Source of the DNA: an uncultured Lachnospiraceae bacterium
GTDB taxonomy: Bacteria > Bacillota > Clostridia > Lachnospirales > Lachnospiraceae
Length of the DNA: 45,163 nucleotides
NCBI GenBank assembly: GCA_947385425.1
Contig: CANDKY010000018.1
Location: forward strand, 1-45,163
Reading direction: 5' to 3'
Below, one piece after another: positions 3,865-31,718 of the stretch. The position numbers and the translations under genes were made by a program. Position 1 is the stretch's first letter. Each line of letters opens with the position of its first letter. The notes beneath the pieces were generated by a model. It was not told the DNA's origin. It did not search any database and saw nothing but the letters and a program-made list of their open reading frames with translations.

Positions 3865-5259
3865 ATGGAAAGACGGGAAAAGGAAAAGAAAATAGCGGCA
3901 GTGATATGCAATTACAATAAAAGCGGTTATGTAACGGAGTGCATACAGAGTGTGCTGGAATCGGTTTACCGGGATTTTGATATTATTGTGGTGGATAATG
4001 CGTCTACGGACGATTCGGTGGAGCAGATCCGCCGAAAATACGGGGACAAGGTCCGGTTATTTGTAAATAAGGAGAATCTGGGCGGGAGCGGGGGATTCAA
4101 TACAGGGATCCGGTATGCCCTGGGGAAAGGGTATGAGTATGTCTGGTGCCTGGATAATGATGTGCTGGTGGATGAAAATGCCATAGGGGAGCTGTACCGT
4201 TTTATGGAAGGCCATCCGGAGGCGGGGATGTGCGGTTCCAAAGTTTATCATATGGAAGCGCCGGATTATGTACAGCAGTTTGGGATTGATATTGTGTGGG
4301 AAGAGTACTGCTGCGAGGCAAAGTATTACAACAGGCTGGAGGACGGCTCCATGCCGGAGGTGGTTTATTCCGATGCAGTGGCGGCCTGTTCCGTTTTGGT
4401 AAGGGCTTCGGTGATACGGGAGATAGGGGTTTTGCCGGAGGGGAATTTCCTTTATTGGGATGATACGGAATGGGGGCTTCTCTGCAATCGGGCAGGTTAT
4501 AAGGTTGCGTCGCTGGGGCGGTCGAAAGTGCTGCACTGCATGGGGGCGAAAAAAGAGGATGTCAGTACGTTCCCTCTGTATTATTCCTGGAGGAACTGGA
4601 TACGTTTCTTTATGAAATATACGCCTGCGGAAAACTGGGAAGGGATGTGCGCTTCATTCCTGAACGGTATTTTTGATGTGGTCTGCAATGACCTTTATCT
4701 GGGGGAGGAAAACAGGACGAAGACAGTAATGTATGCCTATGACGATGCCATCCACGGGCGGATGGGCAGGGCGGAGGAGGATAAAATTTACCCGGTCGTC
4801 CATTCGGAGGAAAAATTAAAAGGGCTTTTGGCAGGGCAGCGGCATATCCGTATCTTTGAAAACGGGAGGAAAGGGCAGGCAGGGGAATTTGCGGAACGGG
4901 CCAGGGAGACGGCGCGGGAGGAAGGGACGGAACTGTCTGTGGAAATCCTGCCCGGGCATGCGTTGGAGGAAGAGTATGGCCTTGGTGCGCGGCTTGCAGG
5001 GAGGAACAGCCGGGGGGACGGGGAAGCAGGGGAGGAAGGGGCAGTACCGAAGGAAGTTACTTTTACCATGACGGAGGATATTTTCCGGCTGGAAGCGGGG
5101 GAGCTGGGGTTGGCGACCTGTTATGTGGACGGCGAGGGGCGGATCGTGTCTTCGTCTGCGGATGTTTTCCTGATTCTGAGTGTCCCGGATATCCGGCGTT
5201 TGTTCCTGCACAGCCAGAAGGAGCTGTTTTTAAACGCGGTGAAAAAAATGCACTCTTAA
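3865..5259 (+). CDS. Glycosyltransferase family 2
   Basis: A 464-residue GT-A glycosyltransferase. The nucleotide-sugar domain covers about residues 8-270: VICNYNK at the start, VVDNASTDDSVE, ENLGGSGGFNTGI, then the metal-binding aspartates in WCLDNDVLVD, and WDDTEWGLLCNRAGY, the ED/DD-type acceptor motif usual in rhamnosyl- and galactofuranosyl-transferase relatives. No membrane segment is evident. The last 170 residues are a charged extension I do not recognise. Donor and acceptor are unknown; cell-wall or surface polysaccharide assembly is likely. ATG 3865 follows GAGTGGGAAG. The DUF5685 and J-domain genes follow in the same direction. Confidence 0.88.
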   Translation: MERREKEKKIAAVICNYNKSGYVTECIQSVLESVYRDFDIIVVDNASTDDSVEQIRRKYGDKVRLFVNKENLGGSGGFNTGIRYALGKGYEYVWCLDNDVLVDENAIGELYRFMEGHPEAGMCGSKVYHMEAPDYVQQFGIDIVWEEYCCEAKYYNRLEDGSMPEVVYSDAVAACSVLVRASVIREIGVLPEGNFLYWDDTEWGLLCNRAGYKVASLGRSKVLHCMGAKKEDVSTFPLYYSWRNWIRFFMKYTPAENWEGMCASFLNGIFDVVCNDLYLGEENRTKTVMYAYDDAIHGRMGRAEEDKIYPVVHSEEKLKGLLAGQRHIRIFENGRKGQAGEFAERARETAREEGTELSVEILPGHALEEEYGLGARLAGRNSRGDGEAGEEGAVPKEVTFTMTEDIFRLEAGELGLATCYVDGEGRIVSSSADVFLILSVPDIRRLFLHSQKELFLNAVKKMHS

Positions 5260-5359
5260 ATTTTAATAAATTGTTTATAGGCCGTTTATTGCCATCTTCT
5301 CAGGAAAGGGGTAGGATAGAAAGCAAAAGACAACAGACCGATTGCTGAGAGGAGCGGCT

Positions 5360-6211
5360 ATGTTTGGTTATGTGATTGTTAATAAAGGGGATATGAAATT
5401 CAAGGAATTTGATATATACCATGCTTATTACTGTGGGCTGTGCCGTTTGCTGAAAGAAAAATACGGGTTGACGGGGCAGCTTTCACTGTCTTATGATATG
5501 ACGTTCGTCGTCATGCTGCTGTCCGGGCTGTATGAACCGGATACTGTGACGGATAGCTGTAAATGTGTGGCGCACCCTTTTGAAAGACATATGGCGAAGA
5601 AAAATGAGTTTACGGAATACGGCGCCGATATGAACGTCCTTTTGTCTTATTACAAATGCATGGACGATTGGATGGACGACCGGAAATATATGAAACGGCT
5701 GTATGCCGGCCTGTTGGAAAAGGGCTACCGTTCCCTGCGGGGAAAGTATGCCGCAAAGGTGAAGCGTATCGAGAGCCTGATGCACCGGCTGCTGCAGAAG
5801 GAGAAAGAGGGCAGCAGCGATATTGACGAGATGTCCCGGCTGTTCGGGGAAGTGATGGCGGAAATCATTGTTTATAAGGATGATGAGTGGAAGGGCAATC
5901 TGTACCGTCTGGGGCTGAACCTTGGGAAATTCATTTATCTGTGCGATGCTTATGAGGATGTGGAAAAGGATCTGAAAAACGGCAGTTATAACCCTTTCCG
6001 GGGGATGTATGAGGATCCGGATTTTGAAGAGCAGTGCAGGGGCATCCTGGTGCTGATGATGTCGGAATGTTCAAGGGAGTTTGAACAGCTTCCCATATTG
6101 GATAATATTGAGATTTTGAGGAATATTATATATTCCGGTGTCTGGTACCGTTATGAAAAGGTGCGGGAAGGGCGTGGGAGCAAAAAAAGGCAGGGACAGG
6201 GCAATGAATAA
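5360..6211 (+). CDS. DUF5685 family protein
   Basis: A 283-residue soluble protein beginning [17 protein letters not shown], with the [14 protein letters not shown] cysteine motif (CGLC) and [13 protein letters not shown] typical of the uncharacterised DUF5685 family of Clostridia. The family is mostly helical, and its conserved Cys pair plus a later VAHPF suggests metal or redox function, but none is established. The ATG at 5360 follows GAGAGGAG. Its end overlaps the J-domain gene start by 8 bases, so translation is coupled and the two products probably act together. Confidence 0.8.
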
Positions 6212-7046
6212 TCCTTATCAGGTTCTCGGTGTATCCCCGGATGCTTCTGAGGAAGAGATAAAAAAAGCATACAGGGCGCTGAGCAGAAGATATCATCCGG
6301 ATGCAAATATCAATAATCCGAATAAGGCACAGGCGGAAGAGAAATTCAAGCAGATACAGGAAGCCTATCAGCAGATAATGAAGGAGCGGACAGGCGGTTA
6401 CGGAGGGGCAGGCAGTTATAGAGGCTATGGGAACGGCGGTTATGGCGGCAGGGCCGGAGGCTATGGGAGCGGCGGCTCAGGAAGCGGTGCCGGAGGTTAC
6501 GGGAGCAGTGCCGGGGGCTATGGGAGCGGCGGCTCAGGAAGCGGTGCCGGAGGTTACGGGAACGGTGACAGAACCGGAGGTTACGGGTATGGCGGTTTTG
6601 GCGGCTTCGGTGATTTTTTCGGCGGTTTTGGGAGTTTCGGCGGCTTTAATACAGGCTATGAAGAGGACGGGCATCTGCGCGCGGCCGGCAACTATGTGAG
6701 GAACGGGTATTACGGTGAAGCAAGGAACGTGCTTGACGGCATGGAGGAGAGGGGCGCAAGATGGTATTATTACAGCGCGCTGGCCCATGCCGGGCTGGGA
6801 AATACGGTGGCCGCGGTGGAACATGCGAAACGCGCGGCGGCTATGGAACCGCAGAATATGGATTACCGGAATCTGTTATATCGTTTTGAAAACGGCGGCG
6901 CGGAGTACCGGCAGCGGCAATATGCCTACGGGAGCCCTTATGCGGGCGGGGGTAATATGTGCTTAAGGCTGTGTATTTTAAATATGTTCTGCAACTGCTG
7001 CTGCGGGGGAGGGGGAATGTGCTGCGGAGGAGTACCGAGGTTTTAG
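6204..7046 (+). CDS. J-domain (DnaJ-like) protein with Gly-rich linker and Cys-rich tail
   Basis: A 280-residue protein. Residues 1-65 are a J domain ([21 protein letters not shown], with the HPD motif in RRYHPDAN), which stimulates DnaK-type ATPases. Residues 70-150 are a Gly/Tyr/Ser-rich linker with a duplicated 19-residue unit ([16 protein letters not shown]). A TPR-like helical stretch follows ([21 protein letters not shown], then [18 protein letters not shown]). The tail ends with hydrophobic residues and [14 protein letters not shown]. The zinc-finger and substrate domains of true DnaJ are missing, so this is a specialised co-chaperone, presumably partner of the overlapping DUF5685 gene. 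ATG 6204 follows AGGGACAGGG. Confidence 0.88.
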
Positions 7047-10648: not shown

Positions 10649-10678
10649 TTGACAAAGCGGAGCTTTAGTAAGTAAAAT
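10649..10678 (+). promoter_or_regulatory. Promoter of the rsmI-tgt-rmt operon
   Basis: A perfect -35 TTGACA (10649-10654), an 18-base spacer and TAAAAT (10673-10678). The predicted leader of about 90 bases carries two hairpins (see next entry). Confidence 0.65.
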
Positions 10679-10696
10679 GGATGGAAACGGTGGTTA

Positions 10697-10750
10697 CTGT
10701 AAGAATTATATTTTTACAGGCAAATTCGCGCCTGCGCCCGGATGCGCAGG
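10697..10750 (+). promoter_or_regulatory. Leader hairpins before the rsmI-like gene
   Basis: CTGTAA pairs with TTACAG (10697-10719), and CCTGCGC pairs with GCGCAGG (10731-10750, six-base loop). The second ends 22 bases before the ATG. There is no T tract, so they are not terminators. They could modulate translation, for instance in response to a drug-stalled ribosome, but no leader peptide with its own ribosome site is evident. Confidence 0.35.
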
Positions 10751-10772
10751 TATGGCAGGGACAGGGATTGTT

Positions 10773-11663
10773 ATGAGCGGTACTTTATATGTTGTTGCAA
10801 CGCCGATTGGCAACCGTGAGGATATTTCGGCGAGGGCGGTAAAAATCCTTACGGAAGTAGATATAATTGCGGCGGAAGATACACGGACGACACAAAAACT
10901 CCTTAATATGTATGGCATTACATGCCATATGGTATCCAATCACAAATTTAATGAGCAAAAGAATAAAGACCTTTTGCTGTCCTATCTTTTGGAGGGCAAA
11001 AATATCGCGGTTGTTTCCGATGCGGGTACTCCGTGTATATCGGATCCCGGATATGTTTTGATTAAGGCGGCGGCGGAAAGCGGTATACCGGTAGTCGGCA
11101 TATGCGGCGCCAGCGCGGTAATTACCGCATTATCCATATCCGGATTTCATTGTGCGTCTTTTTCCTTTTTTGGATTCCTTCCGCGGCAGGAGAGCGGGAT
11201 TCGGGAGATATTCCTGAATGCGGCGCAAAGGGATGTACGGGTCTGCGTTTTTTATGAGTCGCCGAAACGGATAAAAAAGACGATAAACATTCTGGCCGGG
11301 GTATCCCCTGGATCCAGCGTTTGTTTATGTAATGACCTGACCAAATTTTATGAAAGGACATACCGGGGGAATCCAATGGAAGTACTAGGCCTGCTGGAGG
11401 CGAATCCGGGGGCGGAAAAAGGGGAATACACTTTGGTTGTGGAATTTCCCGAAGCGGTATGCCCGGATGAAACGGCGGAAAATGCTGCCGTGAGCAAGGA
11501 AGGGAAAATAGTGGATTATATGATAAAAAATAATGTTTCGGCAAAACAGGCGGTATCTGCGCTCGCCGGGAACGGGATATCAAAAAAAGAGCTTTACGCG
11601 GCGTCGCTTCGCCTGAAACAGCTTTTTTCACAGGATGGCCAGAGAGGGATTGCGGATGAATAG
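10773..11663 (+). CDS. rsmI: RsmI-family 16S rRNA 2'-O-methyltransferase, divergent
   Basis: A 296-residue tetrapyrrole-methylase-fold protein. It has the RsmI landmarks LYVVATPIGNREDIS, AAEDTRTTQKLL, VVSDAGTPCISDPG, FSFFGFLPRQ and FYESPKRI. RsmI 2'-O-methylates C1402 in the 16S rRNA decoding centre. Several normally near-invariant blocks are altered: IPGPSA is GICGASAV here and the RELTKxxEE segment is NDLTKFYER, so it is a diverged paralogue rather than a typical housekeeping copy. The ATG at 10773 was chosen because homology begins there, although the ribosome site (AGGGACAGGG) is weak. It overlaps the tgt-like gene by 8 bases. Whether it still targets C1402 is not known. Confidence 0.85.
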   Translation: MSGTLYVVATPIGNREDISARAVKILTEVDIIAAEDTRTTQKLLNMYGITCHMVSNHKFNEQKNKDLLLSYLLEGKNIAVVSDAGTPCISDPGYVLIKAAAESGIPVVGICGASAVITALSISGFHCASFSFFGFLPRQESGIREIFLNAAQRDVRVCVFYESPKRIKKTINILAGVSPGSSVCLCNDLTKFYERTYRGNPMEVLGLLEANPGAEKGEYTLVVEFPEAVCPDETAENAAVSKEGKIVDYMIKNNVSAKQAVSALAGNGISKKELYAASLRLKQLFSQDGQRGIADE

Positions 11664-12789
11664 GAAAAAGACTTTAGCGCTTCCTCACGGAAACGTAAAT
11701 CTGCCCGCTTTTTTCCCGGATGGGACATATGGCGTTGTGCGCTGTGTGGATACGGTTGATTTGGAAGGAAGCTGCGTGGCGGGGCTTGTTATGAACAGCT
11801 ATCATTTATTGTCCAAGCCGGGCGTAACGGTGTTAAAACAGTTTGGGGGGCTCCATACCTTTAGCGGATGGACGCGTCCGATTTTGACTGACTCGGGGGG
11901 CTTTCAGGTATTTTCTTTGATCCGGGAGAATCCAAAGTACGGGGAGGTCCGTAAAAATGAAATAGTATTCCGTCCCGACGGGAAGAAGGAGAAAGTCATC
12001 CTTACTCCTGAGAAGTGCATACAGTCCCAGTTTAATTACGGATCGGATATCATGATGTGCATTGATTACTGCACACACCCGGATGACTCCTATGAAGAAA
12101 ATGTATTTTCGGTAGAAGTTACTGTTGATTGGGCCAAACGGTGCAGGGACGAGTACGACAGACAATTACGCCAAAGAAAAATTCCTTATGAAAAGCGCCC
12201 GCTCCTGTTTGGGATTATACAGGGGGGGAGTTTTGCCGACCTGCGGAAAAAGTGTGCGGAGGCATTGATCAGCCTGGATTTTGACGGATATGGGTTTGGA
12301 GGATGGCCGGTTGACGCAAACGGTGAATTGATTGAGGATATATTGCGTTATACGGCGGAACTGATGCCGGATGATAAAATCAAATATGCAATGGGGCTTG
12401 GAAAACCGGACGGTATAGTAAAATGCCGTGCAATGGGATATGATTTGTTTGACTGTGTCATACCGACACGCGATGCAAGGCACAACAGGCTGTATGTGTT
12501 CGACCGGTTTGAAGGGACAGGGACAAGCCATCACAATTTTTATATTTTGGATGATAAAAAGGCAAATATGCGCGATGCTTCGCCGGTAGCGCCGGATTGC
12601 GACTGTTTTACCTGCAGGCATTATTCGAGGGCATATTTGTATCATCTTTTCAAGATCGGGGATTCTCTGGGCTACAGGCTTGCAACGATACACAATTTGC
12701 GTTTTTATGCAAGGCTTATGGAAAAAATCCAGGAGCAGGAGACGGAAGGGATAACCCGCGGGACGGTTGAAGGGAATTATGGAAGTTAA
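11656..12789 (+). CDS. tgt: Tgt-family guanine transglycosylase, divergent
   Basis: A 377-residue TIM-barrel base-exchange enzyme, the normal length for bacterial Tgt. Visible motifs are LTDSGGFQVFSL (Asp79), GIIQGG (Gln189), the nucleophile in DCVIPTRDAR (Asp266), and the zinc site CDCFTC with TIHN near residues 315-346. Canonical bacterial Tgt replaces guanine by preQ1 in tRNA. Two base-recognition segments differ from the classical enzyme as I remember it: DECT is DYCT, and the GGLAVGE loop is GGWPVD. A changed base or RNA substrate is therefore plausible. It overlaps the gene before by 8 bases and the one after by 11, so it is tightly coupled to the methyltransferases. Confidence 0.85.
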   Translation: MNRKKTLALPHGNVNLPAFFPDGTYGVVRCVDTVDLEGSCVAGLVMNSYHLLSKPGVTVLKQFGGLHTFSGWTRPILTDSGGFQVFSLIRENPKYGEVRKNEIVFRPDGKKEKVILTPEKCIQSQFNYGSDIMMCIDYCTHPDDSYEENVFSVEVTVDWAKRCRDEYDRQLRQRKIPYEKRPLLFGIIQGGSFADLRKKCAEALISLDFDGYGFGGWPVDANGELIEDILRYTAELMPDDKIKYAMGLGKPDGIVKCRAMGYDLFDCVIPTRDARHNRLYVFDRFEGTGTSHHNFYILDDKKANMRDASPVAPDCDCFTCRHYSRAYLYHLFKIGDSLGYRLATIHNLRFYARLMEKIQEQETEGITRGTVEGNYGS

Positions 12790-13570
12790 TGAATTAGTGG
12801 AAGAAATTGCAAAAAGTAAGAAGTATGCGAATCTGTCCCGGGATATCATTGAGCGTGTGTGCGCAGAGTCGGCGGTAAAATATAAAAAGAAAAAAGCTGC
12901 TTTGAGTGAGGTAAAAAAGGAATTCCATATTGTCTACGAGTCTTTTTTGACACCGAATTGCCAGAATATCGCCAAAGAGAAGATTATGGGATATGAAGGA
13001 GAGGACATTTTAGCTGACAGGAAGTTTTGCCTGGAGTTATTGCCCCTTCACATATCAACGAAAGAACGGGTGGGGGTTGAAAAGGAAATATATTCTTTTA
13101 TCTCCCAATGCATTGTCCCGGACGGTATACTGTCAGATGTCGGGTGCGGGTTTAACCCGCTGGCGCTTCCCTTTATGGAGAAAAGGCCGGGAAGATACTT
13201 TGCATATGAGATAAGCAGGGATACGGTTGACGTGCTGAATGTTTATTTCCGTAAAGCGCGGATGGACGGATATACAGCGTCAATACTGGATGCGGTACAG
13301 GGGGTGCCGTCCGGCTATTCTGACTTATTGCTTGCGCTTAAGCTTCTTCCATTGCTCCAGCAGCAAAAAAAGGGAAGGGCGATGGAGTTTCTTTCCGAAG
13401 CATCCTTTGGGACGGCTGTTGTCTCATTTCCCACCAAAAGCATGGCGGGCAGAAACAAGGGGATGGAAGCTTATTATACCGCTTTTCTGGAAGATAATCT
13501 TCCGGAAAATATTTTAATAGCGGACAGGAGAGTTATATACAACGAACTGTTTTACGTGCTGAAAAAATAA
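12779..13570 (+). CDS. ArmA/Rmt-like 16S rRNA (guanine-1405-N7)-methyltransferase
   Basis: A 263-residue protein with strong resemblance to the aminoglycoside-resistance methyltransferases ArmA and Rmt (about 250 residues). Shared features as I remember them: SKKYANLSRDIIERV (residues 13-27), STKERV (93-98), the SAM motif GCGFNPLALPFM (122-133), KLLPLLQQQKKGR (188-200) and SFPTKSMAGRNKGME (216-230). ArmA has nearly the same GCGFNPLALPFM and IPLLEQQKKGR blocks. Family members methylate N7 of G1405 in the 30S A site and block gentamicin- and kanamycin-class drugs. The gene overlaps the tgt-like gene by 11 bases, so it is the third cistron. Activity and phenotype are inferred from similarity only. 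Confidence 0.85.
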   Translation: MEVNELVEEIAKSKKYANLSRDIIERVCAESAVKYKKKKAALSEVKKEFHIVYESFLTPNCQNIAKEKIMGYEGEDILADRKFCLELLPLHISTKERVGVEKEIYSFISQCIVPDGILSDVGCGFNPLALPFMEKRPGRYFAYEISRDTVDVLNVYFRKARMDGYTASILDAVQGVPSGYSDLLLALKLLPLLQQQKKGRAMEFLSEASFGTAVVSFPTKSMAGRNKGMEAYYTAFLEDNLPENILIADRRVIYNELFYVLKK

Positions 13571-13629: not shown

Positions 13630-13923
13630 ATTAAAAAAAGCAAATGCAGGGAAAGAGACTCTGATTATGGAAAACGACAGGAATACGGCGTCACCGACTG
13701 AGAGCGCCGTTCGCGGGAAATAATGCGGGGAACACTCTGGAGCAGATTTCCTGAACTGTCCGTCAGGGCACTAGGGGGATACGTGGCACGCGTTAAGTGT
13801 AAGAGTGGGCAAGGCGGTTCACACATCTTGATAGAGATGTCGGCTTGTCAATGCGGGTGGTACCGCGGATAGGGAATGTTTATCCGCCCCGGAATGCAGG
13901 AGACTGTGTTCCGGGGTTTTTTT
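13630..13923 (+). ncRNA. T-box riboswitch leader, Asn (AAC) specifier proposed
   Basis: The hallmark T-box sequence TGCGGGTGGTACCGCGG is at 13852-13868 and forms the antiterminator. It is followed by the terminator CCCCGGAA ... TTCCGGGG plus seven T (13887-13923). Stem I spans about 13647-13755 (base CAGG/CCTG) with an AGAGA kink-turn-like motif. On its 3' side, AAC at 13731-13733 is followed by A, the usual codon-plus-purine arrangement. AAC reads as Asn rather than Asp, and no GAC lies at that place. The leader controls aspS and gatCAB by sensing uncharged tRNA. The specifier assignment comes from hand folding. Confidence 0.88.
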
Positions 13924-29994: not shown

Positions 29995-31686
29995 TTATCT
30001 TTTTCCAAAACGCACTTCACAATCCTTCCGGAAAAATGATATTCCATAACAGCCAATTTTCCGATACCCTTCCGCACGCAGCTCTTCCATATATCTTTTA
30101 TCATATATTTGCTGCAGCGCCTTTTCCGCATCACTTTCCAAATCATCCACAGAATCCGAAACTTTCACTTCCACAACAAACGCCCTCCCACGCAGCGAAG
30201 GGCTTTTTACCATAATATCAGAACGTCCGTTTCCCGACTCACGGTTCGATTTCACCAGATAATTTTCGCTCTGGCTTAAGATTCCGGCAAGAAATCCATG
30301 ATAAAAATTTTCCGCGCTGTCAAAAAAGCTTATCGTACGGAAAAGCTGGCCATTTAATATATCTGTCATCCTTTCAGCATTTCCTTCCTCCATTGCACGG
30401 TATAAATCATGAAAATCCTCTTTCCTTATCATATCCTTCATCCAGCTTGAAATCGTGTTCTCATAAATGGTCATAACTTCCACATTCGGGATGCGCACCT
30501 TTAAAAATATATATTTATCTTTAAAGTATTCGCTTTTCTTTGTAAGATAGCCTGTAAAATAGAGAAAATTCCACAAACTCTCCCCTCTGCTGTGCATATC
30601 TCCATAAGTAACTTCTTCATGAACCCGAATGTCTAAAGTTCCGCCGGATAAAAGCGTTTCAATCTGACCCTTAGTTTCCTGGTCTGCTCTGGCAATCAAA
30701 TCTTTTACAATGTCATTGGAACTGGTATTAATCCAATATGGATGAGGGAATGCTTCCGTATCTGAATATAAATCATATAAATACTTTATCACACTCCATG
30801 GATTATACACTTCCGTATCTCCAAACAAATATCCGTCATACCATTCTTTCATTGTCGAAAAACGGCTTTCCACTTCATAATAAGACATCATACGGATCAC
30901 TTCCTGCTCTGTAAAGCCAAAATGATCGCTGTATTTTTTATCAAGTACAGATACAATATTCAAATGATTCAGTCCTGTAAATATACTTTCTTTTGAAATC
31001 CTAAGACACCCTGTAATGACGGCAAACTGCAGATAATCATTCGTCTTTAACGCAGATTCAAACAATGACCGGATAAAATCCGCCATTTCCTCGTAAAACC
31101 CCCGGAAATAAGCATTCTCAAGGGGCACGTCATACTCATCTATCAGGATAACCGCCTGTTTCCCCGTTGCCTGGTAAAGGCATTTGCTTAAGAATTTCAA
31201 AGAGCCGGAATAATTGTCATATCCCGCCTCCCGATCCGCAATCTTTTGGAACAGCGCCTTTTCCCTTTCATTCATTTTTCCGGATTCCATGATATACTGA
31301 TGTCTTTGAAATTCGTCCGCAATATCGTCCCTCAGCTTGCCGTACGCGGATTCAAAAGAAGGTTGCTTCGCGGATTTAAGCGTCAGGTTAATGACCGGAT
31401 AGTCCCCCATATGCTTTGTATATTCTTCGCCCTGCTCCATAATCTTCAAGCCGTGAAAAAGCGATTTGTGTACCTCATTTTTCTCCGTATCCCCTGTATC
31501 CTCATAATAGTATCTAAGCATACTAAGATTTAATGTCTTTCCAAAACGTCTTGGACGGGTAAATAAGTTCACCTTCCCTTTCAGATCAGCCAATTCTTTT
31601 ATGAACAATGATTTATCGATATAATAATAACCGGATTCCATTATGTCCTTAAAGTTTTCCACGCCAATCGGCAGCGCTTTTTTCAT
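29995..31686 (-). CDS. AAA-ATPase-like / PD-(D/E)XK nuclease family protein
   Basis: 563 residues of the widespread two-domain family (AAA-ATPase_like plus PDDEXK_9, formerly DUF1703). The N-terminal domain starts [22 protein letters not shown], with Walker A-like [15 protein letters not shown] and Walker [10 protein letters not shown]. The C-terminal nuclease-like domain has FLAGILS, then [10 protein letters not shown] and AFVVEVKVS (the D...ExK core). The function is unproven; copies are numerous and mobile in gut anaerobes. The second ATG (31686) is preferred because GGAGG lies 7 bases before it and only 1 base before the first ATG (31692). It has its own promoter. Confidence 0.88.
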
Positions 31687-31718
31687 CCTCATACCTCCAT
31701 TCGAATGACGTTTTCCAT

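Follow-up and report, generated by a model that had tools for sequence, protein, structure and literature searches.

The window analyzed here, a 45,163-nucleotide stretch of contig CANDKY010000018.1 from an uncultured Lachnospiraceae bacterium (assembly GCA_947385425.1), carries three overlapping plus-strand genes, rsmI-like, tgt-like and rmt-like, as revealed by its open reading frame (ORF) map. Together with a promoter-like site, the locus is laid out as follows.

10649..10678, plus strand: sigma-70-type promoter-like site, TTGACA-18-TAAAAT, with 11/12 consensus matches
10773..11663, plus strand: rsmI, homologue of the 16S rRNA C1402 2'-O-methyltransferase (TIGR00096)
11656..12789, plus strand: tgt2, a Tgt paralogue with a GGWPVD loop (PF01702, TIGR00430)
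12779..13570, plus strand: rmt, from the ATG at 12779, homologue of the Rmt/ArmA family (16S rRNA G1405 N7-methyltransferase type; PF07091)

In its longest form the rsmI-like ORF starts from the ATG at 10677, with homology from the ATG at 10773 and the stop ending at 11663. Overlaps of 8 bases between rsmI and tgt2 (11656-11663) and of 11 bases between tgt2 and rmt (12779-12789) were observed, and both the ORFs and the family scores agree with the three overlapping RsmI-, Tgt- and Rmt/ArmA-type cistrons described in a first-pass annotation of this DNA. Its claim of one promoter stood only in part: a site with 11/12 matches does lie at 10649, but such sites numbered 5 in the scanned region against 5.8 expected in shuffles, and a single promoter driving the operon from this putative site is plausible.

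All three products were compared with family models. The window RsmI passed TIGR00096 (217.4 bits; cut-off, 167.9) and is the only RsmI match in its genome, while Tgt2 passed both PF01702 (334.7 bits; cut-off, 26.3) and TIGR00430 (342.2 bits; cut-off, 306.75) and is one of two Tgts in the genome, the canonical copy (526 bits) lying on another contig. The window Rmt passed PF07091, the FmrO domain (93.7 bits; cut-off, 27), and fell narrowly under the cut-off of the NF000466 "Rmt_gen" equivalog (245.8 versus 250 bits), for which the related enzyme of genome G474, from the same family, scored 268.1 bits. It failed the RmtE allele family NF000069, and its nearest acquired relative is RmtE (40.6% identity to RmtE of NZ_OV754012.1). 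No FmrO-family match was found in 14 control genomes, and no close relative of the window Rmt protein in a scan of genome contigs. Matches of 18 to 35 bits to NF000466 and PF07091 were taken as other methyltransferases and left out of the counts; among them, a 35-bit match in another genome of the window's family (G396) contains four in-frame stops and is perhaps a decayed copy.

The gene neighbourhood recurs in other genomes. In two further clostridial genomes, picked up through their Rmt alone (G002 and G084), tgt and rmt adjoin, with rsmI also following in G002. The expected adjacency in close relatives was borne out where the genes exist, G474 having the same order rsmI-tgt-rmt, but only 2 of 250 sampled genomes of the window's family (the window genome and G474) contain a strong Rmt. 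Alignment of these Tgts gave the loop FDGYGFGGWP, absent from canonical Tgt, as the basis of a search motif, namely a degenerate DNA pattern for the GGWP loop with W, F, C or L permitted before P. The pattern matched at least 117 stretches in the genome collection, 116 of those listed being Tgt, and had no exact match in viral contigs. The taxa represented among the listed loci include Clostridia, Chloroflexi/Anaerolineae, Eisenbacteria, Chlorobiota, Hydrogenedentes, Coatesbacteria, Latescibacterota, Alphaproteobacteria, Acidimicrobiia and Patescibacteria. Among these 116 loci, rmt lay within 400 nucleotides of tgt2 in 93, adjacent rmt genes shared the strand of tgt2 in 94/94 cases, and the available locus DNA held rsmI in 61 and rsmH in 33. 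At least 10 gene orders were seen, including rsmH>tgt>rmt>rsmI (23 loci), rsmI>tgt>rmt (12, the window included) and tgt>rmt>rsmI (12). Because the same genes adjoin in many genomes, whereas none of 52 canonical-Tgt control loci had rmt, rsmI or rsmH within 1.5 kb, the grouping is more than chance. Thus, the dedicated gene group proposed in the first-pass annotation is real, conserved, widespread and more general than its reader supposed.

Housekeeping RNA-modification genes are often clustered, and transfer as a group is likely here, since few relatives carry the genes. That unrelated RNA-modification genes came to be linked by coincidence or by history alone, and stay together through co-transfer, is nevertheless very improbable, as the association survives many gene orders and several phyla, and drift would break such a linkage.

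The relation between Tgt2 and Rmt is asymmetric: Tgt2 mostly accompanies Rmt, and Rmt can exist without Tgt2. In the class of Bellilinea, 43 of 199 genomes had an Rmt match above 100 bits, and among the 30 best Rmt loci of the class, 19 had Tgt2 within 1.5 kb and 4 more had RsmI and no Tgt2 there. Bellilinea caldifistulae GOMI-1 itself (locus L043), a cultured host, carries tgt2-rmt. A second Rmt paralogue was seen near tgt2-rmt in Anaerolineae-type genomes (L043, at 4374-6769, L078, L088, L101 and L120), and in L043 it overlaps an RsmF-like gene. Separately, fully flanked GGWP-type Tgt loci without rmt were noted, several from Patescibacteria and one cyanobacterial; L061, L064, L079, L109, L141 and L143, mostly Patescibacteria-type, have a GGWP-type Tgt and no rmt in flanks of at least 1.2 kb.

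To describe the partner methyltransferases, 38 genomes were chosen from the cassette carriers, and the proximity of RsmI and RsmH was counted by hand from coordinates. One copy of RsmH was found in 35 genomes, two copies in 1 and none in 2; for RsmI the corresponding numbers were 30, 6 and 2. In 30 of the 38 genomes an RsmI gene was located no more than about 5 kb from tgt2, sharing its strand in 27 of them, and the genome's only RsmI stood beside tgt2 in 26 and its only RsmH in 12, which points to ribosome maturation. Moreover, an RsmB/RsmF-type gene occurred in 11 loci and adjoined the second Rmt in those inspected; the protein of L043 is best described by RsmF models, although under their cut-offs, and exceeds the cut-off of PF17125, the RsmF N-terminal domain. 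In PMC12406665, C1402 is given as the target of RsmI and RsmH and C1407 as that of RsmF, and ArmA is reported to block RsmI, while Sgm and RmtC block RsmF. Given this reported interference, the presence of RsmI and RsmF genes beside rmt suggests that the operon would unite Rmt with the enzymes that it disturbs.

These counts also bear on whether the operon serves for resistance to, or self-protection from, aminoglycosides produced by its host or by neighbouring organisms; self-protection, which the first-pass annotation had raised as a possibility, now appears weak. Acquired Rmt homologues confer aminoglycoside resistance, as stated in PMC9311965, and the spread is patchy (4 of 391 over the cut-off in one scan, 2 of 250 in that of the window's family). 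However, the genome-unique RsmI and RsmH genes lie within the cluster, a scan of 20 other ORFs of the window named no aminoglycoside-synthesis family (producer genes elsewhere in the genome were not looked for), and Tgt2 has no known part in resistance, the acquired regions of rmtB1, rmtF, rmtC and armA being devoid of it. Consequently, we consider a dedicated resistance cassette improbable.

The Tgt2 proteins were surveyed residue by residue, with 126 sequences set against 30 canonical Tgts from the same genomes in Zymomonas mobilis numbering. Equivalents of Asp102, Asp156 and Asp280 were present in 126/126 Tgt2 sequences and Gln203 in 125/126, the zinc Cys and His ligands were kept in 120 to 124 of 123 to 124 sequences, and the two Arg flanking the conserved PTR.AR motif were kept in 124/126 and 125/126. 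The canonical loop GG[LV][AS]VGE (30/30) is GGWP in Tgt2, with Leu231-Ala232 replaced by Trp (125/126) and Pro (126/126, a count that tempers our reading of the loop, the proline having been set by the search pattern for most sequences); in loci found via Rmt or whole-protein similarity instead of the pattern, GG[WF]P occurred in 26/26 loops. Glu235, kept in 30/30 canonical Tgts, was kept in only 11/126 Tgt2 sequences and is absent from the window Tgt2. Tgt2 and canonical sequences split into separate clades with a support of 1.0. A proline at position 232 offers no amide hydrogen. According to PMC3660597, a Leu231/Ala232 peptide flip, steadied by Glu235, turns the pocket from guanine to preQ1, and the Ala232 amide contacts guanine N7 through water. 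As judged from these residues, the published guanine/preQ1 switch is not kept in Tgt2, while the catalytic and zinc residues are, suggesting a transglycosylase with a different base preference.

A second Tgt, whole or fragmented, was found in 49 of 54 Tgt2 genomes (the exceptions being G633, G652, G668, G669 and G673), and QueA in 51 of 54. Because of this second Tgt and the altered base pocket, Tgt2 probably has its own job and a separate substrate. One candidate is tRNA: Tgt2 may insert another 7-deazaguanine, or act under other conditions, at G34 of particular tRNAs and so balance decoding by the ribosome carrying N7-methylguanosine (m7G) at position 1405, only the methyltransferases then acting on rRNA. 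The passing score against TIGR00430, a tRNA-Tgt model, the retained Arg pair and the frequent QueA, which places 7-deazaguanine chemistry at hand, agree with a tRNA target, whereas the presence of another Tgt in most of the genomes, the neighbouring rRNA methyltransferases (for C1402, for G1405 and, in the single case tested, for C1407) and the absence of canonical Tgts from such neighbourhoods do not. We regard a tRNA enzyme as a serious candidate at somewhat below even chances.

The explanation that we favour, with moderate confidence as a whole, is a native operon of three chromosomal genes that matures the 16S rRNA decoding site, in which Tgt2 would work on 16S rRNA, resistance is a by-product and the acquired rmt genes have their source. 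By homology, RsmI would add the 2'-O-methyl group to C1402 and Rmt would methylate G1405 at N7, and co-production of Rmt and RsmI may set the order and dose of these modifications, given the reported block of RsmI (C1402) and RsmF (C1407) by m7G1405 enzymes. Tgt2, a predicted catalytically competent transglycosylase with a reshaped base pocket, would most likely replace a guanine within this region of 16S rRNA, a specialised tRNA target being a close alternative. The host would then gain, as a by-product, high-level resistance to 4,6-substituted deoxystreptamine aminoglycosides. The parts of this explanation differ in strength: a native decoding-site operon that also serves as an rmt reservoir is highly probable, while action of Tgt2 on rRNA is a tentative proposal. 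Its specific form, in which Tgt2 is an rRNA-guanine transglycosylase swapping a 16S decoding-region guanine for a 7-deazaguanine alongside RsmI/RsmH (C1402) and Rmt (G1405), is conceivable and somewhat doubtful; loss of the amide facing guanine N7 would even permit m7G as the base removed.

Several observations weigh against this explanation. With strong Rmt so rare in the window's own family, the gene set is dispensable. Eight of the 116 listed Tgt2 loci lack rmt despite at least 1.2 kb of sequence on both sides (another 15 without rmt have less than 1.2 kb on one side), RsmI lies away from tgt2 or was not found in 8 of the 38 genomes, and no preQ1 riboswitch was detected in the window or in 16 loci. 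Of the 23 genomes with Rmt that were examined in the Bellilinea class, 12 are without any Tgt2, and Rmt is therefore not dependent on Tgt2. Likewise, no Tgt, RsmI or RsmH occurs in the 3-kb flanks of the acquired rmtB1, rmtF, rmtC and armA regions, and the tgt paired with rmtE2 is truncated; resistance is thus not dependent on Tgt2.

Other acquired rmt genes retain traces of the operon. The first-pass annotation had mentioned a tRNA-ribosyltransferase-like gene beside acquired rmtD, which proved true for rmtD1, rmtE2, rmtG and, one gene away, rmtB2. The plasmid Tgts beside these genes are of the GGWP/GGFP type and share 55 to 71% identity with the window Tgt, compared with 40% or less for canonical Tgts. 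On pKP13f the order is rsmH-tgt-rmtG followed by a 98-residue ORF, which is a truncated RsmI start (57% identical to the window RsmI across 58 residues), and at rmtD1 the 31 C-terminal residues of RsmH (81% identical) stand ahead of tgt. The ORF after rmtE2/rmtE4 is 58 to 62% identical to the solute-binding-protein gene after tgt2-rmt in a rabbit Oscillospiraceae genome (L070, 5698-7050; plasmid counterpart of rmtE2, L014, 7564-7881), and by this similarity the lipoprotein gene after rmt is a synteny mark of the rmtE source. Neither the ORF that follows rmtD1 nor those that follow rmtE2/E4 encode RsmI. Around rmtB2 (L012, 3775-7955), tgt and rmtB2 have a metallophosphoesterase gene between them, and a CorA gene is found upstream. 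No close match to either of these two genes turned up in the fetched loci.

Phylogenetic analysis of 68 chosen Rmt sequences, with ultrafast bootstrap (UFBoot) supports taken from unrooted trees, placed RmtD and RmtG among 13 clostridial enzymes in a clade of 15 sequences (UFBoot 100) and RmtF in a 27-sequence clade (UFBoot 88), with RmtB joining the RmtD/RmtG/RmtF group as sister (29 sequences, UFBoot 100). RmtE and the window enzyme fell in a 6-sequence clade (UFBoot 98), within which RmtE grouped with the L028 enzyme at a support of 48. The placements of ArmA and RmtC were unstable or weakly supported between two trees and were not used. The trees contain no antibiotic-producer outgroup because strong matches among 396 Actinomycetota genomes were confined to the centre genome G655, and Sgm was met only as a PDB match. 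Considering the synteny and the trees, acquired rmtB, rmtD, rmtE, rmtF and rmtG probably derive from such operons.

Downstream of the operon lie a T-box leader, aspS, gatA and gatB.

13640-13894: T-box leader directly after the operon, ahead of aspS (RF00230, 58.6 bits, under the gathering score of 93)

Elsewhere in the window, a minus-strand gene with AAA-ATPase_like and PDDEXK_9 domains was observed at 29995-31692.

The Rmt family is known mainly as resistance genes, and the operon provides it with a natural, nonclinical context. It also points to clostridial operons as a testable origin of the acquired rmtB, D, E, F and G genes, with synteny still visible on plasmids, and yields a short motif by which a Tgt paralogue linked to enzymes of the 16S decoding site can be defined. 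Of greatest interest is the possibility that Tgt2 acts on 16S rRNA; if true, this would be the first known case of base exchange in rRNA. The plasmid version of the operon is already in print, contrary to the first-pass statement that no described system unites all three functions: PMC9311965, a 2022 review citing a 2019 paper, describes rmtG as belonging to one operon with rsmH, tgt and "rsmL", and PMC3904158 places a tRNA ribosyltransferase gene upstream of rmtG. Among the open PubMed Central papers searched, only these two named the neighbours. The new elements are how widely the operon occurs in chromosomes, the definition of the Tgt2 subfamily and the likely origin of the acquired rmt genes.

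Compared with canonical Tgt (TIGR00430; the Z. mobilis PDB enzyme), Tgt2 shares the fold family, the catalytic Asp, the base-recognition Asp/Gln and the zinc ligands, and differs in its GGWP loop, the frequent loss of Glu235, its own clade and its usual status as an extra copy in the genomes examined. Relative to housekeeping RsmI, RsmH and RsmF, the window RsmI likewise passes TIGR00096 and is the sole copy in its genome, but here such genes are linked to tgt2 and rmt. Acquired RmtE (E2, E4) is the closest acquired Rmt to the window enzyme, and the truncated tgt next to it shares about 70% identity with the window Tgt, yet the window enzyme falls under the RmtE family cut-off (226.9 bits versus the exception cut-off of 525) and so is no RmtE. 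The rmtG operon of Klebsiella plasmids (pKP13f) links the same three families and has a GGWP-type Tgt 55% identical to the window Tgt; that copy sits amid insertion sequence elements beside sul2 with a truncated RsmI, whereas the window copy is chromosomal, with a full-length RsmI first and no RsmH.

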